From a virus: a stretch of DNA of 57,165 bases. Position 1 is the first letter of the stretch. Each line of letters starts with the position of its first letter. The position numbers and the translations under genes are program-made. The notes beneath the pieces are model-generated. The model ran no database searches and was not told the origin of the DNA. It worked only from the letters and a program-made list of their open reading frames with translations. Shown here one piece after another: positions 4,297-23,650 of this stretch. The stretch is taken from positions 1 through 57,165 of the IMG/VR virus record IMGVR_UViG_3300032087_006388. One strand, given 5' to 3'.

Positions 4297-4370
4297 GGGT
4301 TCTTAGCTCAGTTGGTTAGAGCATCCGACTCATAATCGGCAGGTCGAGAGTTCAAGTCTCTCAGAACCCA
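4297..4370 (+). tRNA. tRNA with CAT anticodon (Met or Ile2 type)
   Basis: Full cloverleaf: the acceptor GGGTTCT pairs with AGAACCC, the D-arm contains AGCTCAGTTGGTTAGAGC, the anticodon loop is CTCATAA, and the T-arm has loop TTCAAGT closed by GAGAG/CTCTC (one G-T). The discriminator is A and no CCA is encoded. CAT can mean elongator Met or, if the C34 is modified to lysidine, isoleucine AUA. In such an AT-rich, AUA-rich genome the latter is plausible, but sequence alone does not decide it. The A-T rich flanks read AAATAAATAA on both sides. Confidence 0.95.
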
Positions 4371-4421
4371 CTATTAAATTAAATAAATAAAAAACAAAAA
4401 TAAACTAAATAAATAAGAGTT

Positions 4422-5513: not shown

Positions 5514-5543
5514 TTGACAGGCATTTGGGTTTTTGTATATATT
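5514..5543 (+). promoter_or_regulatory. sigma70-type promoter, leaderless type
   Basis: TTGACA (5514-5519), 18-bp spacer, TATATT (5538-5543); ATG 5550 follows 6 nt later. This decides the start of the next gene. Confidence 0.7.
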
Positions 5544-5549
5544 GTCTGC

Positions 5550-5939
5550 ATGAAATTAACAAAAGCCAACGACCCAAGATATAAAATCAATTTGGATAAA
5601 CCAATTAAAGTGTATCGTAATCTACATAAACAATGTTGGAGTGTTCAACAGGATGGATTAGTTAAAGCCCACACTAATCTAATTAAATTATTTGATTGCG
5701 AATTTATTGTAAATCAAGCGGGCAGGGAAAAAGTAATTAAAGAGAGGAGAAAAAATGTTCATGCATTTATCAAAGGATATCTAAGTGAATTGTTTGATTC
5801 TTTACTAGATTCCAACAGTGGAACCGAAGTAACATACAATCCGTACAAAAACGAATTCTTTTACGAGAAAGAAAGTGGCAACTCAGTGCACAGTGCTGAT
5901 GCAGTACTTCTCGATGATAGAAAAGTTTTTTCATTTTAA
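5550..5939 (+). CDS. conserved phage protein of unknown function (129 aa)
   Basis: The segment KVYRNLHKQCWSVQQDGLVKAHTN and the later AGREKVIKERRKNVHAFIKG match a family I know from many phages and mobile elements (YRNLxxGCWSV ... GRxRVxREKRKNVHAFxxG). Its function is not known to me. The open frame extends upstream to 5514, but that part is the promoter; the ATG 6 nt after the -10 box is the start and agrees with the family N-terminus. Confidence 0.8.
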   Translation: MKLTKANDPRYKINLDKPIKVYRNLHKQCWSVQQDGLVKAHTNLIKLFDCEFIVNQAGREKVIKERRKNVHAFIKGYLSELFDSLLDSNSGTEVTYNPYKNEFFYEKESGNSVHSADAVLLDDRKVFSF

Positions 5940-5941
5940 AT

Positions 5942-5970
5942 TTGACTTATGGAACTTTTACTTATAATTT
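5942..5970 (+). promoter_or_regulatory. possible sigma70-type promoter overlapping a micropeptide gene
   Basis: TTGACT (5942-5947), 17-bp spacer, TAATTT (5965-5970). It would start transcription near 5977, inside the micropeptide frame, and so could only serve the gene at 6012. Confidence 0.45.
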
Positions 5971-6005
5971 TATTTATATTCTTATTATCAACAACATTAC
6001 CTTAA
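5949..6005 (+). CDS. 18-residue hydrophobic micropeptide, copy 1
   Basis: Reads MELLLIILFIFLLSTTLP. It starts 10 nt after the stop of the upstream gene and ends 6 nt before the next start. Two other peptides of exactly 18 residues in this window end in LTLP (10745 and 15531) and align without gaps; all start with M, are Leu/Ile/Phe-rich and end in TLP. The central stretch is long enough to cross or insert into a membrane. It lacks its own ribosome-binding site, so re-initiation after the upstream gene is likely. Function unknown. Confidence 0.65.
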   Translation: MELLLIILFIFLLSTTLP

Positions 6006-6011
6006 TACATT

Positions 6012-6290
6012 ATGAATAATATTACAGCAATCAAAGCAATGACATCATGGATCAACACCAACGGCAGAACTCCTGCTCCCGAAAACTATATAGATTTATA
6101 TTTAGATAAAATAGGTTTTGATAATTTTGTTGAAACAGAAGATGTTGACAATGAAGTAGATTATGTTCTTGATTATGATGAACAAGATGTTTACGAAGAA
6201 ATAGAATTAATGGAAAATAGTGTAAATACATTTTATACGGAAGACTGCGAAAATATGCAAGAATTTGTCAATACATTAATGGAGGGTTAA
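6012..6290 (+). CDS. acidic protein of unknown function (92 aa)
   Basis: Strongly acidic (many Asp/Glu, with runs such as EDVDNEVDYVLDYDEQDVYEE), no membrane segment, no domain recognised. Acidic early phage proteins of this size are often DNA mimics or binders of host enzymes, but this is only a general possibility. The start follows 6 nt after the micropeptide stop; there is no clear Shine-Dalgarno. Confidence 0.65.
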   Translation: MNNITAIKAMTSWINTNGRTPAPENYIDLYLDKIGFDNFVETEDVDNEVDYVLDYDEQDVYEEIELMENSVNTFYTEDCENMQEFVNTLMEG

Positions 6291-6293
6291 AAT

Positions 6294-6542
6294 ATGGATT
6301 TTGGAGAAGAAAATTTTTCAGCGTGGGGAATTCCCAAGAAAAAAAGAAGAAGCAAGAATGATTATCCCGAACCTGTCGAGCATAAAACTCGATTGGGTGA
6401 AATAAATGAGTTATTAGATAAAAGGATAGATCAAAAGAAAGCATTAGATGAAGCAAATAAAATAAAAGGATCAAATAAGTTGATTTCTGAGATAAATAAG
6501 ACTATAATAGAAATAGACAAAGAATTATATAAACTTAGATAA
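6294..6542 (+). CDS. small basic helical protein (82 aa)
   Basis: A good GGAGGG ribosome-binding site precedes the ATG. An N-terminal basic patch (PKKKRRSKNDYPEP) is followed by a long charged helix resembling a coiled coil. Function unknown. The stop overlaps the next start (TAATG). Confidence 0.65.
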   Translation: MDFGEENFSAWGIPKKKRRSKNDYPEPVEHKTRLGEINELLDKRIDQKKALDEANKIKGSNKLISEINKTIIEIDKELYKLR

Positions 6543-6871
6543 TGTATTTTAATAATGAAAATTCAGGTGAATCAGATGAATTAAATGAATTCTATAAAAA
6601 ATTAGATGAGTCTGTTGATTTTCATTCAAGAAATTTACAAAGCAAAAGTCACGAAGAAGTCGCTAGGTTTATTGCAACAGTAACAAATAGTATAATTGAC
6701 TTGTTAGATCAAATAGATGATGATCAGTTGGCAATTACTCTAACTCAATTAGTTGGCGCCACAATAGGTGGCATGGGTCAAGCAGTATTAGAATTGAGAG
6801 AAGAGAATGATATGTTGAAGCACGATATATTATATAAACTACAAGGGGACATTGATCCCGAATTAAATTAA
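6542..6871 (+). CDS. acidic helical protein of unknown function (109 aa)
   Basis: Coupled to the previous gene by a TAATG overlap. Mostly helical, with a central alanine/glycine segment (LVGATIGGMGQAVLELREEN) that could be an oligomerisation helix and an acidic C-terminus. No recognised domain. Confidence 0.65.
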   Translation: MYFNNENSGESDELNEFYKKLDESVDFHSRNLQSKSHEEVARFIATVTNSIIDLLDQIDDDQLAITLTQLVGATIGGMGQAVLELREENDMLKHDILYKLQGDIDPELN

Positions 6872-6883
6872 TTAAAAAAAAAT

Positions 6884-6912
6884 TTGACTTTATTTGAATG
6901 TCTGATTAAGGT
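6884..6912 (+). promoter_or_regulatory. possible sigma70-type promoter
   Basis: TTGACT (6884-6889), 17-bp spacer, TAAGGT (6907-6912). The -10 box is weak. It lies upstream of the DUF932 gene, which also has a Shine-Dalgarno at its preferred start. Confidence 0.45.
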
Positions 6913-6955
6913 ATTGGTATAGATTATGATTAACCCTCAAACAAAAGGAATAAAA

Positions 6956-7807
6956 ATGAATGTATCAAGTTGTGAATCAGTAAGTGAAGTATTAACCGCA
7001 ATCGGAGCAGAGAATGATTACTCTCTTCGTCCGATTCATGATTTCCCAACCTATCGTGGAGTATTCGATGGCAACGATAATCCTGTCGCTATTGTAAACA
7101 AAACATATAAATTAATGCAACCTGCTAAAGCATTTAGTTATGTAAATGATCTTCGTGAAGAATTAGACATGAAGTTTGATACTGCAGGTTTTACCAAAGG
7201 TGGTCGCAGAATGTATCTTACCTTACGCAAGGAAAATGCTATTGAGATTGACCCTAAAGTTGGCGACACTATGGATGAATTGATTTATTTTTGGACATCA
7301 TTCGATGGTTCTATTCAGCATACTTTAAACAAAATGTTAGAAAGATTGGTCTGCACAAATGGTATGGTAGCTAAAGATGTTCAATCTAGTGTAAAGGTTA
7401 AACATTCTTCTCAAATGGAGTCTAAGTTAGATTCTTATATTTCTAGTGAGATTGAAAACATTAAAGCAACCTACGAAGAAACTAAACAAATTATTTATAG
7501 TTTAGCAGATACTAAGGTTTCTAAGTCTCAAGCTAAGGAAACTATCAATCGCTTATTCGCAGGTGAGAGCAAGAGAGCAGAGAAGACTAGAGAAGATATT
7601 CTTCAGAGATTTACCAATGGTATGGGTAACAGAGGTGAAACTGCTTGGGATTTGCTCAATGGTATTACCGAATACCAAAATCATGGCAAGACATTTCGCT
7701 CAACTGATGGTTCTAGCGCTTCAGAGAATAGATTGACTTCTTTAACTATGGGTCAAGACTCTAACTTGATGCACAGAGTTTGGAGCGAGTTAGTTAGTTT
7801 AAATTAA
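6956..7807 (+). CDS. DUF932 family protein (283 aa)
   Basis: Residues about 25-140 carry the DUF932 pattern (FPTYRGVFDGNDNPVAIVNKTYKLMQPAKAFSYV..., then GGRRMYLTLR and WTSFDGS). The window has a second member at 14599, and the two align through most of their length. DUF932 proteins are common on phages and plasmids; their biochemical role is not established. I prefer ATG 6956, preceded by AAAGGA, over ATG 6926, which would add ten unaligned residues. A strong terminator follows. Confidence 0.85.
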   Translation: MNVSSCESVSEVLTAIGAENDYSLRPIHDFPTYRGVFDGNDNPVAIVNKTYKLMQPAKAFSYVNDLREELDMKFDTAGFTKGGRRMYLTLRKENAIEIDPKVGDTMDELIYFWTSFDGSIQHTLNKMLERLVCTNGMVAKDVQSSVKVKHSSQMESKLDSYISSEIENIKATYEETKQIIYSLADTKVSKSQAKETINRLFAGESKRAEKTREDILQRFTNGMGNRGETAWDLLNGITEYQNHGKTFRSTDGSSASENRLTSLTMGQDSNLMHRVWSELVSLN

Positions 7808-7818
7808 TTTGTTTGGGG

Positions 7819-8070
7819 TTATTGTTGGTACCCCCCCTCCTTCGGGAGGGGGGTTTTTTTGTTTCTGTTTAAATAACGCTCACGCAGGTAATATGGCCAA
7901 AAGAAATAGAAAGCAACATCATCACCATGAAATAAAGCGCGTTCTAATTCAATAGCATACAACTCTTCCCAATTTTTATCTTCTTCTTTAAATAAAGTAT
8001 CACTAGGTTTTAATTTATTTGAATTATTACAAGAGCAAATAAAAAATAATAAAATAAGTAATAACCTCAC
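7819..8070 (-). CDS. predicted lipoprotein on the minus strand (83 aa)
   Basis: MRLLLILLFFICSCNNSNK is a signal peptide with a lipobox-like CSC. The remaining 65 residues are acidic, then Tyr/Arg-rich (FYFFWPYYLRERYLNR). It is the only minus-strand gene I support in the first 17 kb. A GTG start at 8070 is directly preceded by GTGTAAATACATTT, which matches the motif found before late genes. A late gene sitting among early ones, with lipoprotein character, would fit lysis or envelope work, but this is inference. Its last codons overlap the terminator of the plus-strand gene. Confidence 0.6.
   Translation of the reverse strand: MRLLLILLFFICSCNNSNKLKPSDTLFKEEDKNWEELYAIELERALFHGDDVAFYFFWPYYLRERYLNRNKKTPLPKEGGYQQ
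7832..7861 (+). terminator. intrinsic terminator after the DUF932 gene
   Basis: A 9-bp GC stem CCCCCCTCC/GGAGGGGGG closed by a TTCG tetraloop and followed by at least seven Ts. On the other strand the same sequence lies in the last codons of the minus-strand lipoprotein gene. Confidence 0.9.
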
Positions 8071-8084
8071 AAATGTATTTACAC
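8071..8084 (-). promoter_or_regulatory. late-type promoter motif GTGTA before the minus-strand lipoprotein
   Basis: On the minus strand GTGTAAATACATTT runs directly into the GTG start codon at 8070. It resembles GTGTAATACATTAG before the 847-residue late gene at 33954. Confidence 0.5.
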
Positions 8085-8214
8085 TAAATAAAATTTCACA
8101 AATTATAATAAATTGTATAAATAAAACTTGATACCCTTTGGTTAAAATAGTCTAGTACATAACAGGTTGGTATCGGGTGGGTAAGTGGGAATTATATTTT
8201 TTTAAACTTTTAGT

Positions 8215-8243
8215 TTGACATCAAATAAACTATATGGTTTATT
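8215..8243 (+). promoter_or_regulatory. sigma70-type promoter, cassette copy 1 (RNA gene)
   Basis: TTGACA (8215-8220), 17-bp spacer ending AACTATATGG, TTTATT (8238-8243). The same cassette recurs at 8395 and 8602, where an ATG follows 6 nt after the -10 box. Here that position reads AGT, so the product is probably an RNA. Confidence 0.7.
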
Positions 8244-8249
8244 GGTATC

Positions 8250-8370
8250 AGTTCTTTAATATATGCCAACGTGTTCAACCTTAACTGCAATTAAGGGGAG
8301 ATGAGAGAGGTTTGCTTTGCAGAGTTAACTATCCTCTTGCAGGTTCGACTCCTGCCACGTATGGCACGCC
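8250..8370 (+). ncRNA. tRNA-like structured RNA
   Basis: Segment 8339-8355 is a canonical T-arm: GCAGG and CCTGC closing the loop TTCGACT. It is followed directly by CACGT-A-TGGCA (8356-8366), which pairs with TGCCA-ACGTG (8264-8273) over 10 bp with one bulged A. Between them lie a hairpin CCTTAA/TTAAGG (8279-8296) and a 6-bp stem GAGAGG/CCTCTT (8305-8310/8333-8338) with a 22-nt loop. The whole is a cloverleaf-like fold of about 103 nt, too long and irregular for an ordinary tRNA and without a normal anticodon arm or encoded CCA. It has its own promoter at 8215. Confidence 0.55.
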
Positions 8371-8394
8371 TTTTAAAAAAAATTAAAATTTTAT

Positions 8395-8423
8395 TTGACA
8401 CCGATTAAACTATATGCTTTATT
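8395..8423 (+). promoter_or_regulatory. sigma70-type promoter, cassette copy 2, leaderless
   Basis: TTGACA (8395-8400), 17-bp spacer ending AACTATATGC, TTTATT (8418-8423), AGGATT, then ATG at 8430. The TGC before the -10 box is an extended -10 element. Confidence 0.8.
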
Positions 8424-8429
8424 AGGATT

Positions 8430-8600
8430 ATGAACAGAAGAAAGATAACTCTACATCACACTAGCGCCGAGGATTATAAGAAGAGTTTTGAGGAACTTGC
8501 CGATGATCCAAATTTACTTTTAGCACATAATTATGCAGGAAAGTATTACATCATCACTTTTTACGACAGATGGTATTGCGGAAAGTTAATTGAAAATTAA
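8430..8600 (+). CDS. small protein of unknown function (56 aa)
   Basis: Begins MNRRKITLHHTSAEDYKKSF and ends WYCGKLIEN. A helical first half is followed by a short beta-like, aromatic segment (YYIITFYDRWYC). The ATG is 6 nt after the -10 box. The next promoter begins immediately after the stop. Function unknown. Confidence 0.7.
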   Translation: MNRRKITLHHTSAEDYKKSFEELADDPNLLLAHNYAGKYYIITFYDRWYCGKLIEN

Positions 8601-8601
8601 T

Positions 8602-8630
8602 TTGACATCACCTTAACTATATGGTTTATT
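8602..8630 (+). promoter_or_regulatory. sigma70-type promoter, cassette copy 3, leaderless
   Basis: TTGACA (8602-8607), 17-bp spacer ending AACTATATGG, TTTATT (8625-8630), AGTATT, ATG at 8637. Confidence 0.8.
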
Positions 8631-8636
8631 AGTATT

Positions 8637-8831
8637 ATGAACAAAACAATATACTACAAAGAAAAAAACAACTTCGGCACAACTCACTTCTATATTGTAT
8701 CCGAGCATAAAGATGCAATTAAGAGATTGACAGGTCGTTTAACTATAACTTCAGAAGATGCAAAGGCATTGCAGGAATTAGGTTTCAACTTTCAGTTGCA
8801 ACAATCTTTTGCAAAATTACTTGACAACTAA
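8637..8831 (+). CDS. small protein of unknown function (64 aa)
   Basis: N-terminal beta-like half (TIYYKEKNNFGTTHFYIVSE), then a LTGRLTITSEDAKALQELGF segment that looks like a small alpha/beta fold I associate with phage hypothetical proteins. Leaderless start 6 nt after the -10 box. The next promoter's TTGACA overlaps its last codons. Confidence 0.7.
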   Translation: MNKTIYYKEKNNFGTTHFYIVSEHKDAIKRLTGRLTITSEDAKALQELGFNFQLQQSFAKLLDN

Positions 8832-8849
8832 AAACAACTCAACTATATT
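8821..8849 (+). promoter_or_regulatory. sigma70-type promoter, leaderless type
   Basis: TTGACA (8821-8826), inside the end of the previous gene, 17-bp spacer, TATATT (8844-8849), ATTATC, ATG at 8856. Confidence 0.75.
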
Positions 8850-8855
8850 ATTATC

Positions 8856-9170
8856 ATGTACCAAACAATATCACAGTGGGATTTCGTTAGAGCATTTACA
8901 GAAATGAACAGAGAAAGCAATTTCTCCGAAGAAGGCAGGATTGCTTTGTTTGATTTCTTGGAAGAGGTTAATCCCGATTCCGAATTAGATGTTATCGCAA
9001 TTTGTTGCGATTTTACAGAGTATTCTAATTTAAATGAATTAAAGCAAGAATATTCTCATTTATTAGAAGATGAAGATTTAAGCGATGACGATGAAGTGCT
9101 TGATTTCTTCAGAGATGAAACTGTCGTGCTAGAATTGAGCAATGGCGGGATAATAATTCAACAGTTTTAA
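8856..9170 (+). CDS. conserved phage protein of unknown function (104 aa)
   Basis: The core (NFSEEGRIALFDFLEEVNPDSELDVIAICCDFTEY) matches a very common small phage family with the same GR...LFDYLEE...ELDVIAICC-x-(Y/F)-x-E(Y/F) pattern. No biochemical role is established. The acidic C-terminus ends in a short hydrophobic strand. Leaderless start 6 nt after the -10 box. Confidence 0.85.
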   Translation: MYQTISQWDFVRAFTEMNRESNFSEEGRIALFDFLEEVNPDSELDVIAICCDFTEYSNLNELKQEYSHLLEDEDLSDDDEVLDFFRDETVVLELSNGGIIIQQF

Positions 9171-9206
9171 ATAGAATAAAATAATATCATACATATTATA
9201 AATAAT

Positions 9207-9449
9207 ATGAAAGATTTAGATTTAGCTCTTAAATATATACAATATAGATTAAAAGAAAACGAAGAAGTAATAATAAATAAACAAGGCATACAAGTTAATT
9301 TAATTAAAGCGAAAAATAGTATGCCACCAATGGATGCAGAAGATGCTAGAGACATGATTAATGGATTAATGGAAGATGCAGACAGAGGAATTCCAAGAGG
9401 TGTGGACGGCATAGATGTCGAGATGTATCAAAGGATGTACGAAGTTTAG
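9207..9449 (+). CDS. small acidic protein of unknown function (80 aa)
   Basis: Helical acidic protein with many Asp, Glu and Met in the second half (AEDARDMINGLMEDADRG). TATTAT at 9194-9199 lies 7 nt before the ATG and could be a -10 box, but no good -35 is visible, so its promoter is uncertain. Function unknown. Confidence 0.6.
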   Translation: MKDLDLALKYIQYRLKENEEVIINKQGIQVNLIKAKNSMPPMDAEDARDMINGLMEDADRGIPRGVDGIDVEMYQRMYEV

Positions 9450-9514
9450 TTGTAGTTGGTGTTCATCGGAGTTTTAGAAGTTTTCTCCGTTATCAAAAAA
9501 ACTTCGATTTTTAT

Positions 9515-9543
9515 TTGACTCGAGTTGTTTCTTATGGTTATGT
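9515..9543 (+). promoter_or_regulatory. sigma70-type promoter, leaderless type
   Basis: TTGACT (9515-9520), 17-bp spacer ending TATGG (extended -10), TTATGT (9538-9543), then ATG at 9549 after 5 nt. Upstream, 9466-9490 can form a CGGAG/CTCCG hairpin, a weak terminator candidate for the previous gene. Confidence 0.6.
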
Positions 9544-9548
9544 AAGGC

Positions 9549-9737
9549 ATGACAACATTACAAGACATTAAAAATTATCTCGTTATTTACTCCGATGGAG
9601 AAAATGAATACTCAACAAAAATCAAAGCAGTTTCCAAAGAAGATGCTTATTTAAAATTTGATCCATGGGAAGAGTTTGAAATTGTACAGGTAACTAAAAT
9701 AGTTACTTTAGAAGAAGATTTAAATTTTATTAAATAG
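9549..9737 (+). CDS. small protein of unknown function (62 aa)
   Basis: Acidic protein with the pattern YLVIYSDGENEYSTKIKAVSKEDAYLKF. This looks like the short phage proteins that begin with a beta hairpin and a SKEDAY helix. No known function. Leaderless start; followed 12 nt later by a Shine-Dalgarno-led gene. Confidence 0.65.
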   Translation: MTTLQDIKNYLVIYSDGENEYSTKIKAVSKEDAYLKFDPWEEFEIVQVTKIVTLEEDLNFIK

Positions 9738-9749
9738 GAGGGAAATAAA

Positions 9750-9941
9750 ATGATTAAAATAATTAGAAATAATTTTGATAATTGGATAGATATTAGAATA
9801 TTTGATAAATTGATTGACAATGCAAGAACAGAAGCACAGGCAATTGCGCTAGCGCAGGAAATTCAATTAAAACAAAGGGAAGAAGGAAACTTATTAGCTA
9901 TTTCAAACAGATTAAAAAAAAGTAAAAAAAAGTTTGCATGA
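9750..9941 (+). CDS. small basic protein of unknown function (63 aa)
   Basis: Strong AGGAGGG ribosome-binding site, as expected for an internal operon gene. The basic C-terminal tail KKSKKKFA is encoded by A-tracts that also form the upstream part of the next promoter, so coding and promoter overlap here. The middle is an alanine-rich helix. Function unknown. Confidence 0.65.
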   Translation: MIKIIRNNFDNWIDIRIFDKLIDNARTEAQAIALAQEIQLKQREEGNLLAISNRLKKSKKKFA

Positions 9942-9962
9942 TATCTATTTATGCGCGATAGT
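9934..9962 (+). promoter_or_regulatory. sigma70-type promoter with A-tract upstream element, leaderless
   Basis: A8-GT-A8-G (9914-9932), TTGCAT (9934-9939), 17-bp spacer, GATAGT (9957-9962), ATG at 9969 after 6 nt. Confidence 0.65.
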
Positions 9963-9968
9963 ATGATT

Positions 9969-10694
9969 ATGAACAACAAAACAATCAACTTATTATCCTC
10001 TCCAAGCAAGATGCCTTGCGTTGGTTTCAATCTTCCTGCATTAAAATTTTGTCCTGCCGCGACTATCTTATTAAAGAAAGCAAAAGATAATTTAGATAAA
10101 TTAATTTGTTCAAGTTGCTATGCCTGCAAAGGATTTTATCAATTTTCTAACACAAAACAATCGTTGCAAAACAAAGCGGATTTTGTTTTATCTAGTTTAA
10201 GACAAGACAACGGCAAAACTTTTGTTAAAGCAATGGCAAGCCAAATCTTTAAAAAGTATTATAACAAGGACGGAACACGCAAGACATTAAAGAATATAAA
10301 CACAAAACTTTTTCGTGTTCATGATAGTGGTGACTTGTTTAGTGTTGCATATATCAAAGCTTGGATAAACATATGCAAAATTTTTCCTACTATTCGCTTT
10401 TGGTTTCCTACTAGGGAATGGATTAGAGAAAGCCAATTGGATGCATTAAAAGAATTAGCAAGTTTGCCCAATGTATCACTTAAACCAAGCGCGTTAGAAA
10501 TTGATCAGCCTGCACCAAAGATTGAAGGTTTAGATTCAGGAACAGCAGTTTATAGTTGCGCAGAAAAAGCCAAACAGGACGGGCATTTTGTTTGTCCTGC
10601 CACAGCGACAGATGATCATACTTGCGCAGGTAACAATTGTCAAAATTGCTTTATCAAAAATTTCAAAAAACCTATAGCCTATCTTGCCCACTAA
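9969..10694 (+). CDS. Gp88-like cysteine-rich phage protein (241 aa)
   Basis: The layout matches the phage Gp88 family: CPAA...CSSCYACKG near residue 50, an R-HDSGD(L/F)-S-xxYI-xxW segment in the middle, RFWFPTRE, and a C-terminal cysteine group (CPAT, C-x4-NC-xx-CF). The cysteine spacing suggests a metal or iron-sulfur site; the enzyme activity is not known. I prefer ATG 9969 over ATG 9951 because 9957-9962 is the -10 box. The stop codon sits in the loop of a 9-bp hairpin (10681-10704). Confidence 0.8.
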   Translation: MNNKTINLLSSPSKMPCVGFNLPALKFCPAATILLKKAKDNLDKLICSSCYACKGFYQFSNTKQSLQNKADFVLSSLRQDNGKTFVKAMASQIFKKYYNKDGTRKTLKNINTKLFRVHDSGDLFSVAYIKAWINICKIFPTIRFWFPTREWIRESQLDALKELASLPNVSLKPSALEIDQPAPKIEGLDSGTAVYSCAEKAKQDGHFVCPATATDDHTCAGNNCQNCFIKNFKKPIAYLAH

Positions 10695-10704
10695 GGGGCA
10701 AGAT
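10681..10704 (+). other. hairpin with the stop codon in its loop
   Basis: ATCTTGCCC (10681-10689) pairs perfectly with GGGCAAGAT (10696-10704). The TAA stop of the Gp88-like gene is in the 6-nt loop. The T-run after it is poor, so it is at best a weak terminator; mRNA protection is an alternative. Confidence 0.5.
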
Positions 10705-10744
10705 TTAAATAATCTAAATAAAATAATAAATAAACTAAATAAAT

Positions 10745-10801
10745 ATGTTATTAATATTTTTAATTTGTTTCATTTGTCTTGTAGGATTAACATTACCTTA
10801 A
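10745..10801 (+). CDS. 18-residue hydrophobic micropeptide, copy 2
   Basis: Reads MLLIFLICFICLVGLTLP. Same length and same LTLP ending as the copy at 15531, and the same TLP ending as the copy at 5949. It follows an AAATAAATAAAC-type spacer and is followed by a strong terminator, so it is the last frame of its transcript. Two cysteines lie in the hydrophobic stretch. Membrane location is likely; function unknown. Confidence 0.65.
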   Translation: MLLIFLICFICLVGLTLP

Positions 10802-10827
10802 TTTAATTTGGTGTTCATAGTAGTGGT

Positions 10828-10871
10828 CTCCTGCTCAGGTTTTTGGGTTACCTGGGCAGGAGTTTTTTTTT
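10828..10871 (+). terminator. intrinsic terminator
   Basis: A 13-bp stem CTCCTGCTCAGGT (10828-10840) pairs with ACCTGGGCAGGAG (10850-10862) with one G-U pair, followed by a T-run to 10871. Confidence 0.9.
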
Positions 10872-10881
10872 GGTTTAGGTG

Positions 10882-10910
10882 TTGACGTGGGTTCATTCCT
10901 TTGCTTTATT
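10882..10910 (+). promoter_or_regulatory. sigma70-type promoter, leaderless type
   Basis: TTGACG (10882-10887), 17-bp spacer, TTTATT (10905-10910), GTTTGT, ATG at 10917. Confidence 0.7.
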
Positions 10911-10916
10911 GTTTGT

Positions 10917-11093
10917 ATGAACACTATACAACAAGATTTAAAGTTCGTTGCAAAAAGGAAAGACTCTCCTGCATTCGAACAAATTTGGAGAGCATTCAAG
11001 AAAAGCAAATTCAATCCTTCTCTTAGTCAAGGCAATGGAAACAAGGCATGGAAAAGATTAAGAAAAATTAAAAAAGAATTGAATTTAATTTGA
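10917..11093 (+). CDS. small basic protein of unknown function (58 aa)
   Basis: Begins MNTIQQDLKFVAKRKDSPAF and is strongly basic in its C-terminal half (KAWKRLRKIKKELNLI). The basic helix could contact nucleic acid, but nothing specific is recognised. The frame is open back to 10887, but that part is promoter; the ATG 6 nt after the -10 box is the start. Confidence 0.7.
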   Translation: MNTIQQDLKFVAKRKDSPAFEQIWRAFKKSKFNPSLSQGNGNKAWKRLRKIKKELNLI

Positions 11094-11118
11094 CACCACC
11101 ACCAACACGTGCAAAGTT
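11090..11118 (+). promoter_or_regulatory. probable sigma70-type promoter, leaderless type
   Basis: TTGACA (11090-11095) overlapping the previous stop, 17-bp spacer ending TGC, AAAGTT (11113-11118), ATATTT, ATG at 11125. The -10 box is poor but the TGn extension and geometry fit the others. Confidence 0.55.
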
Positions 11119-11124
11119 ATATTT

Positions 11125-11331
11125 ATGAGCAGTAAACATATATCCAACGGCATGAAGAAAGTCATGAAACAACTAAAGAAAAATGGAGTAGCATTTCGGG
11201 AAACCAAGAAAGGAGTTTTCCTCACACATCCGAAAGCAAAAACTCAGTATCTTATGCATTTTTCGGAGAAAGCTATTCATCCCGTCCGTAGGTGGGCAAG
11301 ATTAGAATTAGGTTTAGATTTAAAATTCTAA
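11125..11331 (+). CDS. HicA-like small basic protein (68 aa)
   Basis: Residues 14-55 (KQLKKNGVAFRETKKGVFLTHPKAKTQYLMHFSEKAIHPVRRW) resemble the double-stranded-RNA-binding-like fold of HicA/YcfA proteins: a helix, a beta hairpin, the HP turn and a final helix. HicA toxins are mRNA interferases with a catalytic His. No HicB antitoxin is adjacent, so a toxin role is not supported. The stop overlaps the next ATG by one base. Confidence 0.5.
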   Translation: MSSKHISNGMKKVMKQLKKNGVAFRETKKGVFLTHPKAKTQYLMHFSEKAIHPVRRWARLELGLDLKF

Positions 11332-11447
11332 TGAAAGCGCTTGCAATAAGAAAGAAAGTTTTCTTTATTAGTTCAATACCTCATAAGAATAAAAAGAAAA
11401 TAATACCCAGGAAAGCTAAATACAAAAGAAATGAAAAAGATTGCTGA
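11331..11447 (+). CDS. small highly basic protein (38 aa)
   Basis: A 38-codon frame beginning MKALAIRKKVFFISSIPHKN and continuing with many Lys and Arg residues. The start overlaps the stop of the HicA-like gene by one base (TAATG), the main reason to believe it. Very high positive charge; function unknown. It overlaps the next frame by 17 nt. Confidence 0.4.
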   Translation: MKALAIRKKVFFISSIPHKNKKKIIPRKAKYKRNEKDC

Positions 11448-11544
11448 AATACTATACCATTATAAATTATTTAATTTAGATGTAAAAGAATATATCTCTC
11501 TCATAAAGAGAAGTAAATCAATCAAATCATTTAAAACAAAATAA
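11431..11544 (+). CDS. small basic protein (37 aa)
   Basis: A 37-codon frame beginning MKKIAEILYHYKLFNLDVKE and ending in a Lys/Ser-rich tail. It looks helical and amphipathic. It has no good Shine-Dalgarno (the purine run GGAAAG is about 20 nt away) and its start lies inside the previous small frame, so support is limited. Confidence 0.35.
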   Translation: MKKIAEILYHYKLFNLDVKEYISLIKRSKSIKSFKTK

Positions 11545-11547
11545 AAT

Positions 11548-11576
11548 TTGACTAAATAGGTGAAAGGAATTAATTT
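11548..11576 (+). promoter_or_regulatory. sigma70-type promoter, leaderless type
   Basis: TTGACT (11548-11553), 17-bp spacer, TAATTT (11571-11576), GTTTAT, ATG at 11583. Confidence 0.65.
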
Positions 11577-11582
11577 GTTTAT

Positions 11583-11714
11583 ATGAATAGAAAAGACAGA
11601 ATCATCCGAGCAATGCAAAAAGCGACCAAGAGGAAAAGCAAGAGCGCTTGGTTACTTTATACTTTAATTGATTTATTTGATATTGAATTCAAAAAAACTT
11701 TAAAAAAGATTTGA
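11583..11714 (+). CDS. small basic protein (43 aa)
   Basis: Begins MNRKDRIIRAMQKATKRKSK, followed by SAWLLYTLIDLFDIEFKK and a lysine tail. The basic N-terminal helix and hydrophobic centre suggest a nucleic-acid or membrane-surface binder; no family is recognised. Leaderless start 6 nt after the -10 box. Its last codons overlap the next promoter's -35 box. Confidence 0.6.
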   Translation: MNRKDRIIRAMQKATKRKSKSAWLLYTLIDLFDIEFKKTLKKI

Positions 11715-11740
11715 CTCAGAGAACCAACTAGCATTATATT
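11711..11740 (+). promoter_or_regulatory. sigma70-type promoter, leaderless type
   Basis: TTGACT (11711-11716), 18-bp spacer, TATATT (11735-11740), AACCTT, ATG at 11747. Confidence 0.7.
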
Positions 11741-11746
11741 AACCTT

Positions 11747-12070
11747 ATGAATACAACACCAATCATTGAAATTGAGGAGTTCGACGCTGAAACGTTTGAA
11801 CTGAATTATCATTGCGCAAACTCTTACGATTCCTTTTATTTAAAAGGAACAATTGTATTAGAAGAAGAGGAAAGTCTTTGGGGAGATCAAGTCAGCGCTT
11901 GCCACTTGGTGGCAAAAGTTAACGAGATCACTGAAGTATTTCAGTTTGACGAAGAAGGGGAAGAAATGAATCATGTAAATTTAGAACTTGCAAGGGAAGC
12001 AATGCAAGCGATAGAAAGAAAAGAGGAAGTACTTGACACCAAGTATTATTCAATAAATTATAACTTATAA
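11747..12070 (+). CDS. acidic protein of unknown function (107 aa)
   Basis: Strongly acidic, with a predicted beta-rich first half (FELNYHCANSYDSFYLKGTIVLEEEE) and a helical second half. No recognised family. The start is 6 nt after the -10 box. A hairpin AATCAG/CTGATT (12088-12113) follows the stop and could be a weak terminator. Confidence 0.7.
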   Translation: MNTTPIIEIEEFDAETFELNYHCANSYDSFYLKGTIVLEEEESLWGDQVSACHLVAKVNEITEVFQFDEEGEEMNHVNLELAREAMQAIERKEEVLDTKYYSINYNL

Positions 12071-12112
12071 CGATAGAAGAAAAAAAGAATCAGTTTTCTC
12101 TCGCTTTCTGAT

Positions 12113-12141
12113 TTGACAAAAAAGCGAATATCTTTTAAATA
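12113..12141 (+). promoter_or_regulatory. sigma70-type promoter
   Basis: TTGACA (12113-12118), 17-bp spacer, TAAATA (12136-12141), then an AT-only leader of about 35 nt (AATAAATAATAATAATTA type) to the ATG at 12177. Confidence 0.5.
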
Positions 12142-12176
12142 AAATAAATAATAATAATTATTAAATAAATTAAGTT

Positions 12177-12311
12177 ATGACAACATTAGATATTAAAAAC
12201 AAAATTAAACAAATTAAAATTAAGATGCGGGAAGCAGAATCATGGGATGAGCTCGCCAATCTCGCAATTCGATTAAAAGGCTGGCAATTAGAACTCGCCA
12301 AAAAAAAGTAA
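12177..12311 (+). CDS. small helical protein (44 aa)
   Basis: Begins MTTLDIKNKIKQIKIKMREA, then ESWDELANLAIRLKGWQLEL and a lysine tail. Two amphipathic helices are expected, as in small DNA-binding or adaptor proteins. The final AKKK is encoded by the A-tract that forms the next promoter's upstream element. Function unknown. Confidence 0.55.
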   Translation: MTTLDIKNKIKQIKIKMREAESWDELANLAIRLKGWQLELAKKK

Positions 12312-12319
12312 AAAAAGAT

Positions 12320-12348
12320 TTGACAGGGTTTGGTTTATATAGTTTATT
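12320..12348 (+). promoter_or_regulatory. sigma70-type promoter with A-tract upstream element
   Basis: A-tracts (12300-12316), TTGACA (12320-12325), 17-bp spacer, TTTATT (12343-12348). The transcript has a leader of about 38 nt ending in a GAAAGGA Shine-Dalgarno, so this one is not leaderless. Confidence 0.7.
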
Positions 12349-12392
12349 AAGGTTACAGTTTATTTATTTTAATCTAAAGAGAAAGGAAAACC

Positions 12393-12683
12393 ATGAAAGA
12401 ACAAGAGTTATATAATCAACCTCACCTGTTATTTAATACAGGTTGTCGTTATACAGAACACGGTCAAAGAATCCTAGCGCTTCAGCTGGGCAATGACGTT
12501 CTTTGTCACGATTACGATAGATCAATTAGTTATTTCTTTAAAGATTGCCCACTTGACGCGCGGAAAATCGAAGCAAGAGAAAAAGCGAGTGGATCTCATA
12601 CTTCAATTTATGATTTTAAAGAGGATATTATACTTTGGAGAGTTTGGGATCATTGGGCAGAAAAATTAAATTTAGAGTTTTAA
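12393..12683 (+). CDS. conserved-looking phage protein of unknown function (96 aa)
   Basis: The segment LLFNTGCRYTEHGQRILALQLGNDVLCHDYDRSISYFF resembles small phage proteins with the GRxYTxxGQRI pattern. Family role unknown. A good Shine-Dalgarno (AAAGGA) precedes the ATG, and a terminator follows 8 nt after the stop. Confidence 0.75.
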   Translation: MKEQELYNQPHLLFNTGCRYTEHGQRILALQLGNDVLCHDYDRSISYFFKDCPLDARKIEAREKASGSHTSIYDFKEDIILWRVWDHWAEKLNLEF

Positions 12684-12689
12684 TAAAAC

Positions 12690-12720
12690 AAAGGGGGGGA
12701 AGAAATTCCTCCCCTTTTTT
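12690..12720 (+). terminator. intrinsic terminator
   Basis: AAAGGGGGGG (12690-12699) pairs with CCTCCCCTTT (12708-12717) around an 8-nt loop, merging into a T-run. Confidence 0.85.
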
Positions 12721-12779
12721 AATAAATAAAACAAATAGAACAAAAATAAAATAAATAAAATAAATAGGAGGAAATAAAA

Positions 12780-12971
12780 TTGAAAGATAGAGAAATATTA
12801 AAAACAGAATTAAATAGATTAGTTAAAGAGGAAGGTTTCAATCTTCAGTATGCAAATGATATACTTTTATTATTTGATGACGAGATCGAAGACGGGCACA
12901 GCGCAAACACAGCCTACGACAAGGCAATGCAAGACATCGACAACGTAAAGGCTGGAGAATGGGATTTATAA
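12780..12971 (+). CDS. small acidic protein, TTG start (63 aa)
   Basis: AGGAGGA stands 8 nt before a TTG codon, which is therefore the start; no in-frame ATG is closer. The protein is acidic and helical (LVKEEGFNLQYANDILLLFDDEIEDGHSANTAYDKAM). No family recognised. No clear promoter, only AT-rich AAATAAATAA spacer upstream. Confidence 0.6.
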   Translation: MKDREILKTELNRLVKEEGFNLQYANDILLLFDDEIEDGHSANTAYDKAMQDIDNVKAGEWDL

Positions 12972-12998
12972 TTTAATTAAAAAAAAGTAAAAAAAAGT

Positions 12999-13027
12999 TT
13001 GCAATTTGATTTCACCTGTAGGATAGT
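12999..13027 (+). promoter_or_regulatory. sigma70-type promoter with A-tract upstream element, leaderless
   Basis: A8-GT-A8-G (12979-12997), TTGCAA (12999-13004), 17-bp spacer ending TAG, GATAGT (13022-13027), AAGGTT, ATG at 13034. Nearly the same module as the promoter at 9934. Confidence 0.7.
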
Positions 13028-13033
13028 AAGGTT

Positions 13034-13288
13034 ATGAGAAACAGCACCACCACCTACCACGAAACACTTCACACCTTAGTTCAAGACGTACAGGAGAATT
13101 ACCTGGATCTGAACAGCGCAACCAGTGAAGAGTTTGCAAATCACTTCTGGCAACCAGTTGGATATAACGAGACAGTGCGCGAGTCTTTCAAGTTGGATTC
13201 CATAAAGGGAAAGGGCACACGTCGTTATTTACAAGTTGTGATTTATCGATTTGAAACAGGAAGATACGAACTAGTTTGCTACTCCTAA
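13034..13288 (+). CDS. conserved small phage protein of unknown function (84 aa)
   Basis: The C-terminal pattern YLQVVIYRFETGRYELVCY recalls small phage proteins ending in YR...SGRYEL-x-x-Y. No function known. Leaderless start. The stop codon lies in the loop of a 12-bp hairpin (13274-13300), as with the Gp88-like gene. Confidence 0.75.
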   Translation: MRNSTTTYHETLHTLVQDVQENYLDLNSATSEEFANHFWQPVGYNETVRESFKLDSIKGKGTRRYLQVVIYRFETGRYELVCYS

Positions 13289-13300
13289 GGGGTAGCAAAC
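13274..13300 (+). other. hairpin with the stop codon in its loop
   Basis: GTTTGCTACTCC (13274-13285) pairs with GGGGTAGCAAAC (13289-13300) with one G-U pair. The loop is exactly the TAA stop codon (13286-13288). Confidence 0.55.
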
Positions 13301-13338
13301 GTTTAAATTAAATAAAATAAAATAGGAGATAAAAGAAA

Positions 13339-13509
13339 ATGACAAGGAAACACTTCACCATCGTAGCAAAAGAATTAAACTTCTCATTGCGTAATGCGCC
13401 TAACAGCGCTCCAATCATTCGGGATCTCGCCACAGCGCTAGCAAACGAGTTCGAGCAATTAAATCCAAACTTTAACAGGTCGAAATTCCTAGCAGTTGCG
13501 CTAGGATAA
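13339..13509 (+). CDS. conserved small phage protein (56 aa)
   Basis: Starts MTRKHFTIVAKELNFSLRNA and ends RSKFLAVALG. It matches a widespread small phage/bacterial family: KHF-x-x-(I/V)A at the start, then a helix with A-x-x-LA and the F-NPNF-(D/N)R-x-(K/R)F-L ending. Family function unknown. Shine-Dalgarno AGGAGA upstream. In related genomes this family often sits beside the W-EFAV-IYIEVLENG family, as here. Confidence 0.85.
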   Translation: MTRKHFTIVAKELNFSLRNAPNSAPIIRDLATALANEFEQLNPNFNRSKFLAVALG

Positions 13510-13526
13510 AAAAAGTAAAAAAAGAT

Positions 13527-13555
13527 TTGCAATTTAAGCAAAAGAATGAGATCTT
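13527..13555 (+). promoter_or_regulatory. probable promoter with A-tract upstream element, leaderless
   Basis: A7-GT-A7-GA (13508-13525), TTGCAA (13527-13532), 17-bp spacer, GATCTT (13550-13555), AATTTT, ATG at 13562. The -10 box is poor; geometry and A-tracts match the other two TTGCAA promoters. Confidence 0.5.
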
Positions 13556-13561
13556 AATTTT

Positions 13562-13726
13562 ATGTTTGAAAACGACGTAGACCTCACACCAACTTGGGAG
13601 TTCGCTGTAAAGATTTACATCGAAGTTCTCGAAAATGCAAACGCCTCTTTTGAGGGAAAACAAGCTGCGCGGGAGGAGCTTTTAAAGCTTGCGCAACTTG
13701 TAGACAGGCAAAACAAGGAAGCCTGA
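13562..13726 (+). CDS. conserved small phage protein (54 aa)
   Basis: Begins MFENDVDLTPTWEFAVKIYI, then a helical EGKQAAREELLKLAQLVD segment. This is the common small phage family with W-x-x-AV-x-IYI-x-VLENG...GK-x-AREEL-x-(K/R)-(L/M)A. Function unknown. The start lies 6 nt after the -10 box, and a strong terminator begins 7 nt after the stop. Confidence 0.85.
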   Translation: MFENDVDLTPTWEFAVKIYIEVLENANASFEGKQAAREELLKLAQLVDRQNKEA

Positions 13727-13732
13727 AATTTC

Positions 13733-13761
13733 AGCCCCCTAGAAATAGGGGGCTTTTTTTT
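13733..13761 (+). terminator. intrinsic terminator
   Basis: A 9-bp stem AGCCCCCTA/TAGGGGGCT with a GAAA loop followed by a T-run. Confidence 0.9.
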
Positions 13762-13904
13762 ACCTACAAATAGAAATAATTTATTTAAATAGAAATAAAA
13801 AATAGAAATAAAAATAATTTATTGAAATAGAAATAGTAAAGATCTTATTTTAATTTATTTATTTAATTTGTATATTTAGTTTATTTATAGCGGCTATTAG
13901 CTGA

Positions 13905-13923
13905 ACTAATGGATCTTATTAGT
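13905..13923 (+). repeat. palindromic site A: ACTAAT-N7-ATTAGT
   Basis: ACTAAT, seven bases, ATTAGT: a 19-bp interrupted palindrome, one of three identical-arm copies. A further half site TATTAG lies just upstream (13895-13900). Confidence 0.6.
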
Positions 13924-13931
13924 AAAACTTC

Positions 13932-13940
13932 TGTGAATAA
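13932..13940 (-). promoter_or_regulatory. DnaA-box-like site 1
   Basis: TGTGAATAA on the plus strand is TTATTCACA on the minus strand and fits the bacterial DnaA-box consensus TTATNCACA. Confidence 0.35.
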
Positions 13941-13952
13941 CTTTTTTAATTT

Positions 13953-13961
13953 TGTGAATAA
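13953..13961 (-). promoter_or_regulatory. DnaA-box-like site 2
   Basis: Second TGTGAATAA, 21 bp (two helical turns) after the first, same orientation. Confidence 0.35.
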
Positions 13962-13967
13962 CTAGCG

Positions 13968-13996
13968 TTGACAATTTTGATTTTTTCCTTTTGATT
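13968..13996 (+). promoter_or_regulatory. possible promoter
   Basis: TTGACA (13968-13973), 17-bp spacer, TTGATT (13991-13996). The -10 box is weak. The same arrangement, TTGACAATTT with a CCTTTT before the -10, is seen at 14526. Confidence 0.4.
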
Positions 13997-14050
13997 AGTT
14001 TTATCGTTCTTTTAATTCTTTTAAACTTAAACTCTTAAATTCTTATTATT

Positions 14051-14347
14051 ATGAAAGATTATAGCAACCTCACACGTGAAGAAATGGCAAACCTTACAAG
14101 TAAAGAAATGGCAAACCTTACAAACGAACAAATGAAAAAAATTCACACTGACATACTTTGCGCTTTAGCGGATAAATTTCAACGTGAAGAACCACCACAT
14201 GAGCGCTTGGTTTGTGAGAATGGTTGCAACTCATGGGCGGACGAAGATATAAAACTTTTTTGTGATGATGAGAATTATGCGCCAAGTGATGATTATCATT
14301 ATGGCAACGATTATTTCAAACAAGAATGGATAGATGACGAGTTTTAA
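14051..14347 (+). CDS. protein with N-terminal NLT-x-EEMA repeats (98 aa)
   Basis: Residues 5-30 contain three tandem copies of an 8-residue repeat (NLTREEMA, NLTSKEMA, NLTNEQMK), with matching repeats in the DNA. The rest is acidic, with two cysteines (CENGC) and a DDYHYGNDYF segment. The repeats would give one amphipathic helix. No Shine-Dalgarno is seen. Function unknown. Confidence 0.65.
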   Translation: MKDYSNLTREEMANLTSKEMANLTNEQMKKIHTDILCALADKFQREEPPHERLVCENGCNSWADEDIKLFCDDENYAPSDDYHYGNDYFKQEWIDDEF

Positions 14348-14434
14348 ACTTGTCGTTTTTTTTACTTGCTTTTTATTCAAACCTCGCTTTTATTATAATC
14401 TCACACTTATTAACTCAAACAAAGGAAAACTAAA

Positions 14435-14518
14435 ATGATTCTTGAAATTTTATTCGTTGCAAACTTCGCTTTTGCTTTTTATATCATCACTAAATTAGGA
14501 AAATTGGATTGTGAATAA
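14435..14518 (+). CDS. 27-residue membrane micropeptide
   Basis: Begins MILEILFVANFAFAFYIITK and ends LGKLDCE. A single hydrophobic segment followed by a charged tail fits a one-pass membrane peptide. The AAAGGA Shine-Dalgarno with spacing to the ATG (AAAGGAAAACTAAA) closely matches that of the DUF932 gene at 14599. The last three codons (TGT GAA TAA) are also the third DnaA-box-like sequence. It is distinct from the 18-residue TLP family. Confidence 0.6.
   Translation: MILEILFVANFAFAFYIITKLGKLDCE
14510..14518 (-). promoter_or_regulatory. DnaA-box-like site 3
   Basis: Third TGTGAATAA, here inside the end of the 27-residue gene and followed, like site 1, by CTTTTTT. Confidence 0.25.
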
Positions 14519-14525
14519 CTTTTTT

Positions 14526-14554
14526 TTGACAATTTCAAAAAACTCCTTTTAATT
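14526..14554 (+). promoter_or_regulatory. possible sigma70-type promoter
   Basis: TTGACA (14526-14531), 17-bp spacer, TTAATT (14549-14554), upstream of the second DUF932 gene. Confidence 0.45.
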
Positions 14555-14598
14555 AAATTAAATTCTTATTATTAACCAACCAACCAAAGGAAACTAAA

Positions 14599-15534
14599 AT
14601 GTACCTAATCAATCCAACTGAAGTATCAAACCTTGCCAACGTAGTACAAACTACCGCACGGGAATTCAAATTGCATGACGTTAGCGAATGTGATGACGTA
14701 AACGACGTATTGAATCACTTGAACGTCGGGCGCTATTCTAAAGTAGATATTCCACACGTTTGCAAGGGCTATTCTGTTATTAAAGACGATTTCGGGAATC
14801 CTTTAAGTATCGTTCAAGATACTTATGATTTGCTCCAACCACAAAGGGCTTTTGCTTTCATGGACTCACTACGTGAGCAAGTGGGCTTTACATATAGCAA
14901 AGCGGGCTTCTTACAGAATGGACGTCAGCTTTTCATTCAAGGCAAACTTGGCGATTTCGAAGTACCAACCACTAGCGCAAGACGTAAGGGCGATATACTG
15001 AACAAAATCATCACCGCAAAAACTTCATTTGATGGAAGTATTGCAACCACAATCGCCATTGAAATCTTAAGAGTTTGGTGTGACAATGGTTGCGCATCAT
15101 GGGAAAACGATTCCATAATTGGCAAGGTAAAGCATACCAAGAATCAAACCGCAAGAATGAATCTTGCCCTTTCCCATGCAACGGGCTTGCGTCAAGTGGT
15201 TCAAGATTTGGAAAACGATATTTCCACACTTTCCAATGTACAAATGACGGGCGAACAATTCGAGCAGATTGCCAATCGTGTATTTGCGGGCGATTCGACA
15301 AGGGCAGAAAATCAGCGCGATGCGGTAAAGGCTCAATTTGCAAACGAGCGTTTAGGCGCATTTGGAAGTACCGCGTGGGATGCAATGAATGCTTTCACCG
15401 CATGGGCGACTCATGAGCGCACGTCTCGCAATACAGAACAAACCACACGTGAAGAGAATCACTTTCGCGCACAATCCGATTCTGCTTTTCCTCGCAAGGT
15501 TCGCAAGGCAATTCAAGAGGTAATGGCGGTATGA
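14599..15534 (+). CDS. DUF932 family protein, second copy (311 aa)
   Basis: Shares the family core with the protein at 6956: CKGYSVIKDDFGNPLSIVQDTYDLLQPQRAFAFMDSLREQ..., FDGSIATT, then a helical C-terminal half with IANRVFAGDSTRAENQRD and GSTAWDAMNAFTAWATHE. Codon use is distinctly richer in GC (GCG, CGC, GGC) than the 6956 copy, so the two probably came from different sources rather than a recent duplication. The Shine-Dalgarno is AAAGGAAAC. Its stop overlaps the start of the micropeptide at 15531. Confidence 0.85.
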   Translation: MYLINPTEVSNLANVVQTTAREFKLHDVSECDDVNDVLNHLNVGRYSKVDIPHVCKGYSVIKDDFGNPLSIVQDTYDLLQPQRAFAFMDSLREQVGFTYSKAGFLQNGRQLFIQGKLGDFEVPTTSARRKGDILNKIITAKTSFDGSIATTIAIEILRVWCDNGCASWENDSIIGKVKHTKNQTARMNLALSHATGLRQVVQDLENDISTLSNVQMTGEQFEQIANRVFAGDSTRAENQRDAVKAQFANERLGAFGSTAWDAMNAFTAWATHERTSRNTEQTTREENHFRAQSDSAFPRKVRKAIQEVMAV

Positions 15535-15587
15535 TACTACTTGCCATAATAGCGGGCGCGTTCCTTATCAGTTTGACGTTGCCATAA
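15531..15587 (+). CDS. 18-residue hydrophobic micropeptide, copy 3
   Basis: Reads MILLAIIAGAFLISLTLP. The ATG overlaps the TGA of the DUF932 gene (ATGA), the usual sign of coupled translation. Compared with copies 1 and 2, the last codons (ACG TTG CCA) differ at every third position from ACA TTA CCT but encode the same TLP, so the protein rather than the DNA is conserved. A strong terminator follows. Confidence 0.7.
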   Translation: MILLAIIAGAFLISLTLP

Positions 15588-15595
15588 TCTAAACC

Positions 15596-15622
15596 AAGCG
15601 CCCGAAAGGGCGCTTTTTTTTG
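15596..15622 (+). terminator. intrinsic terminator
   Basis: AAGCGCCC/GGGCGCTT stem with a GAAA loop, followed by a T-run. Confidence 0.9.
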
Positions 15623-22909: not shown

Positions 22910-23650
22910 CTAAAATAAACCTCTTTCTATGGAGTCATGTATTATAACTGAATTGATCATTCTTTCAAGACAAAATGGAAGGCATGGAAAATATTCCAAG
23001 CCAGTAGATTGAATGAAAGAATTGCTGGGTTTAAAAGTTTCAAAATTTTCATCACCCTCGTGAGGATTCACATAATAAGACTCCTTGTTCATTATAAAAT
23101 TCACACGCGAATCTGAATAGTACAGTTCAAGAATAGGGCCGATAATTTTTTTAAAAAAATTAATATAGAAATCAGATCTAGCGACCCAGAAGTTACAATA
23201 AATTGGGTTTTTGATTAAAGTCAGTTCTCGCGTGATAAATTCTTTTTCAAATATATTATGTTGATATAATTTTTTTAATAAATCAAAATAGTGAATTCTG
23301 ATTTCGGGGTGGTCATCAAAAATGTCTTGAATTTTATCTGTTTTTTTATTTGGAAATATTTTGTAGTTATTTATCTTTGGTGAGATTATGGATGCTTGCG
23401 GGTTTTTATCTATAGCTTTTTCTATGGTTTTTAGAGAGTAATTCTTTAGCTTATTTCCCACAGAATGAGAGAAAAAACCTATCCATTCAGAATCAACATT
23501 CCATTTCTCATTTTTCAGGAAATGAAAAATAATTTCTGATTCAAATCCTGGAAAATGAAAGTCATTTCTGAGCCAAACAAAATCTTTATCAAGACTTGCC
23601 TCTTGGTCTTCCTTGTAATATATTTGATATATCTTTAACTTTTCTTTCAT
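22910..23650 (-). CDS. glycosyltransferase-like protein of unknown type (246 aa)
   Basis: Segments such as WIGFFSHSVGNKL, the YCNFWVARSDFYINF stretch and YFPCLPFCLERMINSV recall bacterial glycan-synthesis glycosyltransferases of the DUF4422/rhamnan type, in which CNMFIM-x-x-x-x-F and a P-x-x-ERL element recur. The match is by eye only. Neighbouring genes on both sides encode sulfotransferase-like proteins, and it overlaps the upstream one by 4 nt. Confidence 0.45.
   Translation of the reverse strand: MKEKLKIYQIYYKEDQEASLDKDFVWLRNDFHFPGFESEIIFHFLKNEKWNVDSEWIGFFSHSVGNKLKNYSLKTIEKAIDKNPQASIISPKINNYKIFPNKKTDKIQDIFDDHPEIRIHYFDLLKKLYQHNIFEKEFITRELTLIKNPIYCNFWVARSDFYINFFKKIIGPILELYYSDSRVNFIMNKESYYVNPHEGDENFETFKPSNSFIQSTGLEYFPCLPFCLERMINSVIIHDSIERGLF

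Follow-up and report, generated by a model that had tools for sequence, protein, structure and literature searches.

Can frames of only 18 codons, below the limits of gene callers, be genes, and if so what might their products do? The question is raised by an IMG/VR virus record of 57,165 bases and 33% G+C (the window), in which a preliminary description had pointed to a family of three 18-residue hydrophobic frames ending in TLP, conserved as protein and not as DNA. The first 16 kb of the window carries Phage_L5_gp82, GP88 and DUF932 genes, and a terminase lies near 25 kb. Our examination recovered the three frames with exactly the coordinates and sequences first given (Table 1), and the third is indeed recoded at its TLP end, which reads ACG TTG CCA as against ACA TTA CCT. 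Their placement, originally given as operon ends or gaps with two frames just before strong terminators, needs one correction: frames b and c precede terminators, and frame a is not at a terminator but lies between the gp82-like gene and a gene beginning MNNITAIKAM....

Table 1. Features of the window, with the contigs in which each class of micropeptide occurs; genes and hairpins were called with our own simple scripts.
Feature	Position	Strand	Placement or remark	Contigs with the class
tRNA-Met (CAT) gene	4297-4371			
Phage_L5_gp82 gene (PF25735, phrog_586)	5514..5939	+	Upstream of micropeptide a	
Micropeptide a, MELLLIILFIFLLSTTLP	5949..6005	+	9 nt 3′ of Phage_L5_gp82-like gene, 6 nt 5′ of next gene	Class a (3′ of Phage_L5_gp82): window, G006, G013, G020
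GP88 gene (PF17338, phrog_1392)	9951..10694	+	Upstream of micropeptide b	
Micropeptide b, MLLIFLICFICLVGLTLP	10745..10801	+	50 nt 3′ of GP88 gene	Class b (3′ of GP88): window, G003, G006, G010, G012, G019
Intrinsic terminator	10828..10862	+	26 nt past micropeptide b stop; fold −23.9 kcal/mol, then T-run	
DUF932 gene (PF06067, phrog_1221)	14599..15534	+	Upstream of micropeptide c	
Micropeptide c, MILLAIIAGAFLISLTLP	15531..15587	+	Start overlaps DUF932 stop (ATGA)	Class c (ATGA overlap with DUF932): window, G001, G002, G003, G006, G009, G010, G011, G012, G019
Intrinsic terminator	15596..15615	+	8 nt past micropeptide c stop	
Single reading frame	36510-51131		4873 aa	
Class d micropeptides			ATGA overlap with 38-aa gene	G010, G012, G019; G006 peptide of same region grouped here

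Frames of this kind could in principle arise by chance, or from the composition of AT-rich DNA. Frames a and b are themselves AT-rich and end in a common run of 12 bases, ACATTACCTTAA, found at only those two places in the record; the third, however, lies in a GC-richer stretch and uses other codons. The window holds no other TLP-ending frame of 10-40 aa (ATG, GTG or TTG starts, both strands). In 300 dinucleotide-preserving shuffles the number of TLP-ending ATG frames of this length averaged 0.13 per shuffled window, with a maximum of 2, and no shuffled window contained an 18-mer TLP frame with a GRAVY above 2. These shuffles, the positional conservation of the frames across a clade and the synonymous bias of their changes all contradict an artefact, to which we give next to no credence.

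Relatives were collected from viral contigs by way of terminase, DUF932, GP88 and gp82, and 15 contigs were read. A first look after the matching genes found a micropeptide of diverged sequence at the same place, and a scan of gene gaps added more, which brought the total to 25 distinct peptides in corresponding positions (17-19 aa, with a single 21-mer) from about 15 related viral contigs. Each genome carries one to five diverged copies; one contig (G012) holds two beyond its members of classes b, c and d. The class a counterparts, for example, are MVLLLIILVIFLLSTTLP in G013, MELIILILTIFLLSTTLK in G020 and MELLILFLLTLFLSTQLPN in G006. Searching relatives for TLP ends, as had been proposed, returned near copies only, and it was a search at gene ends with the terminus left free that uncovered the family. 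C-terminal ends among its members include TTLP, SQMP, TQLP, FLLP and ILLP; the signature of the family is (L/I/M)P-stop, which together with a charge-free core is the constant feature, and TLP, although it marks the only such frames in the window, is merely a variant common in this genome. In 2.7 Mb of related loci, which partly overlap, a regular expression for the family matched 15 distinct peptides (17 rows, two of them alternative starts); it matched nothing in 8.1 Mb of shuffled sequence. Directly 3′ of DUF932 homologues at 45-48% identity (L086-L088) there is no such frame. Hydrophobic frames 3′ of GP88 in three further loci (L103, L104 and L115) were excluded, as their ends are not (L/I/M)P (two are DD/ND) and they overlap a Tyr-rich second frame.

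Several features suggest that what is conserved is a protein. None of the 325 core residues of the 25 peptides is D, E, K, R or H, a figure that is partly due to selection because the scan that collected some members required a charge-free core; members found by position alone have charge-free cores too. At the second position of core codons T makes up 70% and A 1%, as against 30% and 38% A at positions 1 and 3. Pro closes 17 of the 25 micropeptides as against 16 of 1063 ordinary genes (1.5%), a large contrast, although part of the set was itself found by its (L/I/M)P end. For class c, which is the best-sampled class, the window and its closest counterpart (G001) differ by five synonymous and no replacement changes, G012 and G019 by four synonymous and one replacement, and pS exceeds pN in all pairs. 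In classes a and b pS is not clearly greater than pN, and hydrophobicity is kept; the case there therefore rests on the retained frame, length, place and hydrophobicity. The family rows are related to one another and the counts are not independent. We looked for absence of the frame from relatives and for frames broken as often as kept, and found neither. On these sequence comparisons, the view that the peptides would constitute one protein family conserved at the protein level is well supported, best of all for class c, and the classes likely share common descent.

The family is nearly exclusive to one virus clade. Three degenerate patterns, scanned over 2.9 million viral contigs, gave 18, 6 and 7 matched stretches or matches, and those free of longer genes were confined almost wholly to this clade, to which they added a new contig (G019); the patterns span only part of the range of the family, which bounds the claim of restriction. 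Outside the clade, the matches of the first and third scans fall within or next to long ORFs and appear to be chance hits. Of the matches not free of longer genes, which are contained in such ORFs or overlap them, two hold a stop that the pattern permitted. That the signature picks out essentially one clade among so many contigs means that comparison can find such families even at 17 codons. We assign no host, since the relatives of the terminase in genome contigs belong to bins of different phyla (Halobacteriovorax, Flavobacteriaceae, Verrucomicrobiales). No close cultured phage was found, the terminase matches to cultured phages all being distant, at below 60% identity.

What might such peptides do? 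We consider it rather probable that all three frames are genes that are translated, and that their products belong to one family of membrane micropeptides, which act in trans while the virus takes over its host. Of the functions first suggested, which included toxins, lysis timers and exclusion factors, membrane insertion is the most likely. Each peptide would fold into one hydrophobic helix, some 13-15 residues long and uncharged in its core, with a short polar end that as a rule terminates in (L/I/M)P. Ribosomes would make it at the tail of a polycistronic message, starting again where the preceding gene stops (at ATGA or within a few nt), or else it would have its own leader; once released, the peptide would enter the cytoplasmic membrane of the host and work there in trans. 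Its most likely effect would be to pack against a host membrane protein or to alter the membrane during takeover, so that other phages might be excluded, or energy or transport brought under control. As a precedent, PmrB is reportedly named in a colistin-resistance study of random-sequence peptides (PMC7790251). We infer translation, membrane insertion, early timing and an effect on the host, the timing from the neighboring genes only. That a genome holds one to five copies, diverged from one another, suggests several targets or fast turnover.

Consistent with a single-pass membrane micropeptide, the GRAVY of the peptides is about 2.0-2.9, and each has one hydrophobic segment, free of charge in its core, that could sit in a membrane. 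Random hydrophobic peptides of 22-25 residues with polar C-termini become embedded in the membrane and reduce its potential (PMC6550523), and the micropeptides share with these artificial peptides, Arp1-3, a very high hydropathy and a polar C-terminus; Arp1-3 were picked from random libraries, whereas the micropeptides are natural and conserved. Against membrane action, the hydrophobic segment has few residues with which to span a membrane completely and there are no basic residues to set topology. A clear Shine-Dalgarno sequence is missing at most micropeptide starts; by a crude test one is present in 10-32% of the longer genes of these viruses.

The C terminus and the placement of class c bring in a different explanation, in which translation of the micro-frame matters and its product does not. 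According to this cis-regulatory proposal, a ribosome that re-initiates at ATGA would stop 4-8 nt 5′ of the hairpin, perhaps slowed by the Pro, and prevent its folding, with read-through as the result. An 18-residue chain lies entirely within the exit tunnel at termination. The gap between stop and hairpin is 4-8 nt at nine of the ten class c loci, whereas nearly all ordinary genes in these contigs end with one of 16-32 nt; in the sole exception, G002, the Pro is lost and the gap is 14 nt, although this is one case. Moving a stop to 5 bp 5′ of a terminator lowered termination in E. coli from ~90% to under 10% (PMC4824070), and a C-terminal Pro is able to stall termination, according to Hayes 2002 as cited in PMC7246954. 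Eight of the 25 peptides, however, do not end in Pro (LK, TL, FN, PN, PL, KV, EL), hydrophobicity is kept along the entire frame, and gaps of 3-9 nt also follow a few ordinary genes (an Hsp20-like gene and one of 96 aa). Moreover, the same kind of peptide is kept in class b, with a gap of 26 nt in the window, and in class a, which lacks a terminator. As classes a and b lack the class c geometry, cis regulation cannot cover the whole family; we regard it as unlikely overall but as a serious rival for class c. It is also conceivable, though in our judgment quite improbable, that the peptide is both product and device: slow termination on the hydrophobic chain with its Pro-stop would park the ribosome on the terminator, read-through would hinge on re-initiation, and the released peptide would act in the membrane.

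Leader peptides of the TnaC type consist of a very short frame with arrest at a Pro-stop. The micropeptides resemble them in length and, in 17 of 25, in the Pro before the stop, and class c in its position near a transcription-control element, just 5′ of a terminator. Unlike such leaders, the micropeptides stand at the ends of messages, their Pro is not strictly kept and their core is conserved as hydrophobic only; classes a and b do not fit the placement.

Returning to a released membrane peptide, size and composition also match those of the Ibs type I toxins, and a toxin-like peptide of this kind could depolarize the membrane of the host, either to aid takeover or to time lysis, and an antisense RNA might control it. 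Ibs genes occur in multiple copies per genome, which counts for this possibility. IbsC of E. coli has 19 aa, and a core of 15 residues, 10 or more of them hydrophobic, remains toxic (PMC8309996). The 25 micropeptides, at 17-21 aa with a charge-free core, share with it length, hydrophobic core, polar end and the several copies per genome. They differ in being viral, in their C-terminal Pro and in being tied to ordinary genes at gene ends within a shared message, whereas toxin loci stand alone. An Rfam scan of the window found one tRNA and no other RNA family, and hence no antisense Sib RNA of a described family overlapping the micropeptide genes. Promoter-like sites in the first 18 kb number 102 on both strands together, as against 87 ± 10 in shuffled sequence, a rate so near the shuffled one that none can be called an antisense promoter. 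Although size and composition fit, we would not on present sequence evidence file the family under Ibs/Sib, and we rate a toxin of this type as doubtful.

A much weaker candidate, which we think very improbable, is that the peptides are communication signals: cleavage of the hydrophobic part within the membrane would set free the polar tail (e.g. TTQMP). Gram-positive bacteria use short hydrophobic pre-peptides of similar size in this way, and the polar tail does differ from member to member. In the window, however, the tail is common to three separate loci; the micropeptides lack a basic N-terminus, and no receptor gene was recognized near them.

Membrane micropeptides, the reading that we prefer, are a kind already known when hydrophobic; what appears unusual here, as judged from sequence, is the combination of 17-19 residues, an (L/I/M)P end, several copies per genome and the near restriction to one clade. 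Conserved tiny genes have been predicted in phage genomes (Fremin et al. 2022, as cited in PMC11323111), and insofar as that citation describes them the micropeptides are alike in being conserved tiny phage genes. If translated, they would rank among the shortest natural proteins conserved in viruses of prokaryotes, and genomes would hold several diverged copies that standard annotation misses. The peptides form a ready test set for how minimal membrane helices affect cells.

Other observations were made at these gene ends. Ordinary gene ends in G001-G013, G019 and G020 have a tight stop-to-terminator distance, mostly ~16-32 nt. The A-rich leader-like words AAATAAACTAAATA and AAATAGAA recur in window positions 10695-10744 and in similar intergenic gaps of relatives. 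A second small hydrophobic frame of 25 aa lies 3′ of class b in G010 (MNVLISLLISISMPIIFFNFLFAIV; L160, reverse strand, 1048-1125), with a similar one in G019. Finally, G012 encodes at 23145-23297 a likely membrane protein of 51 aa (MKNFILKNLLITMPIWSLALADLTGG...) directly 5′ of a micropeptide, with an ATGA overlap; it has a relative in G007 and weaker ones in G009, G011 and G019.
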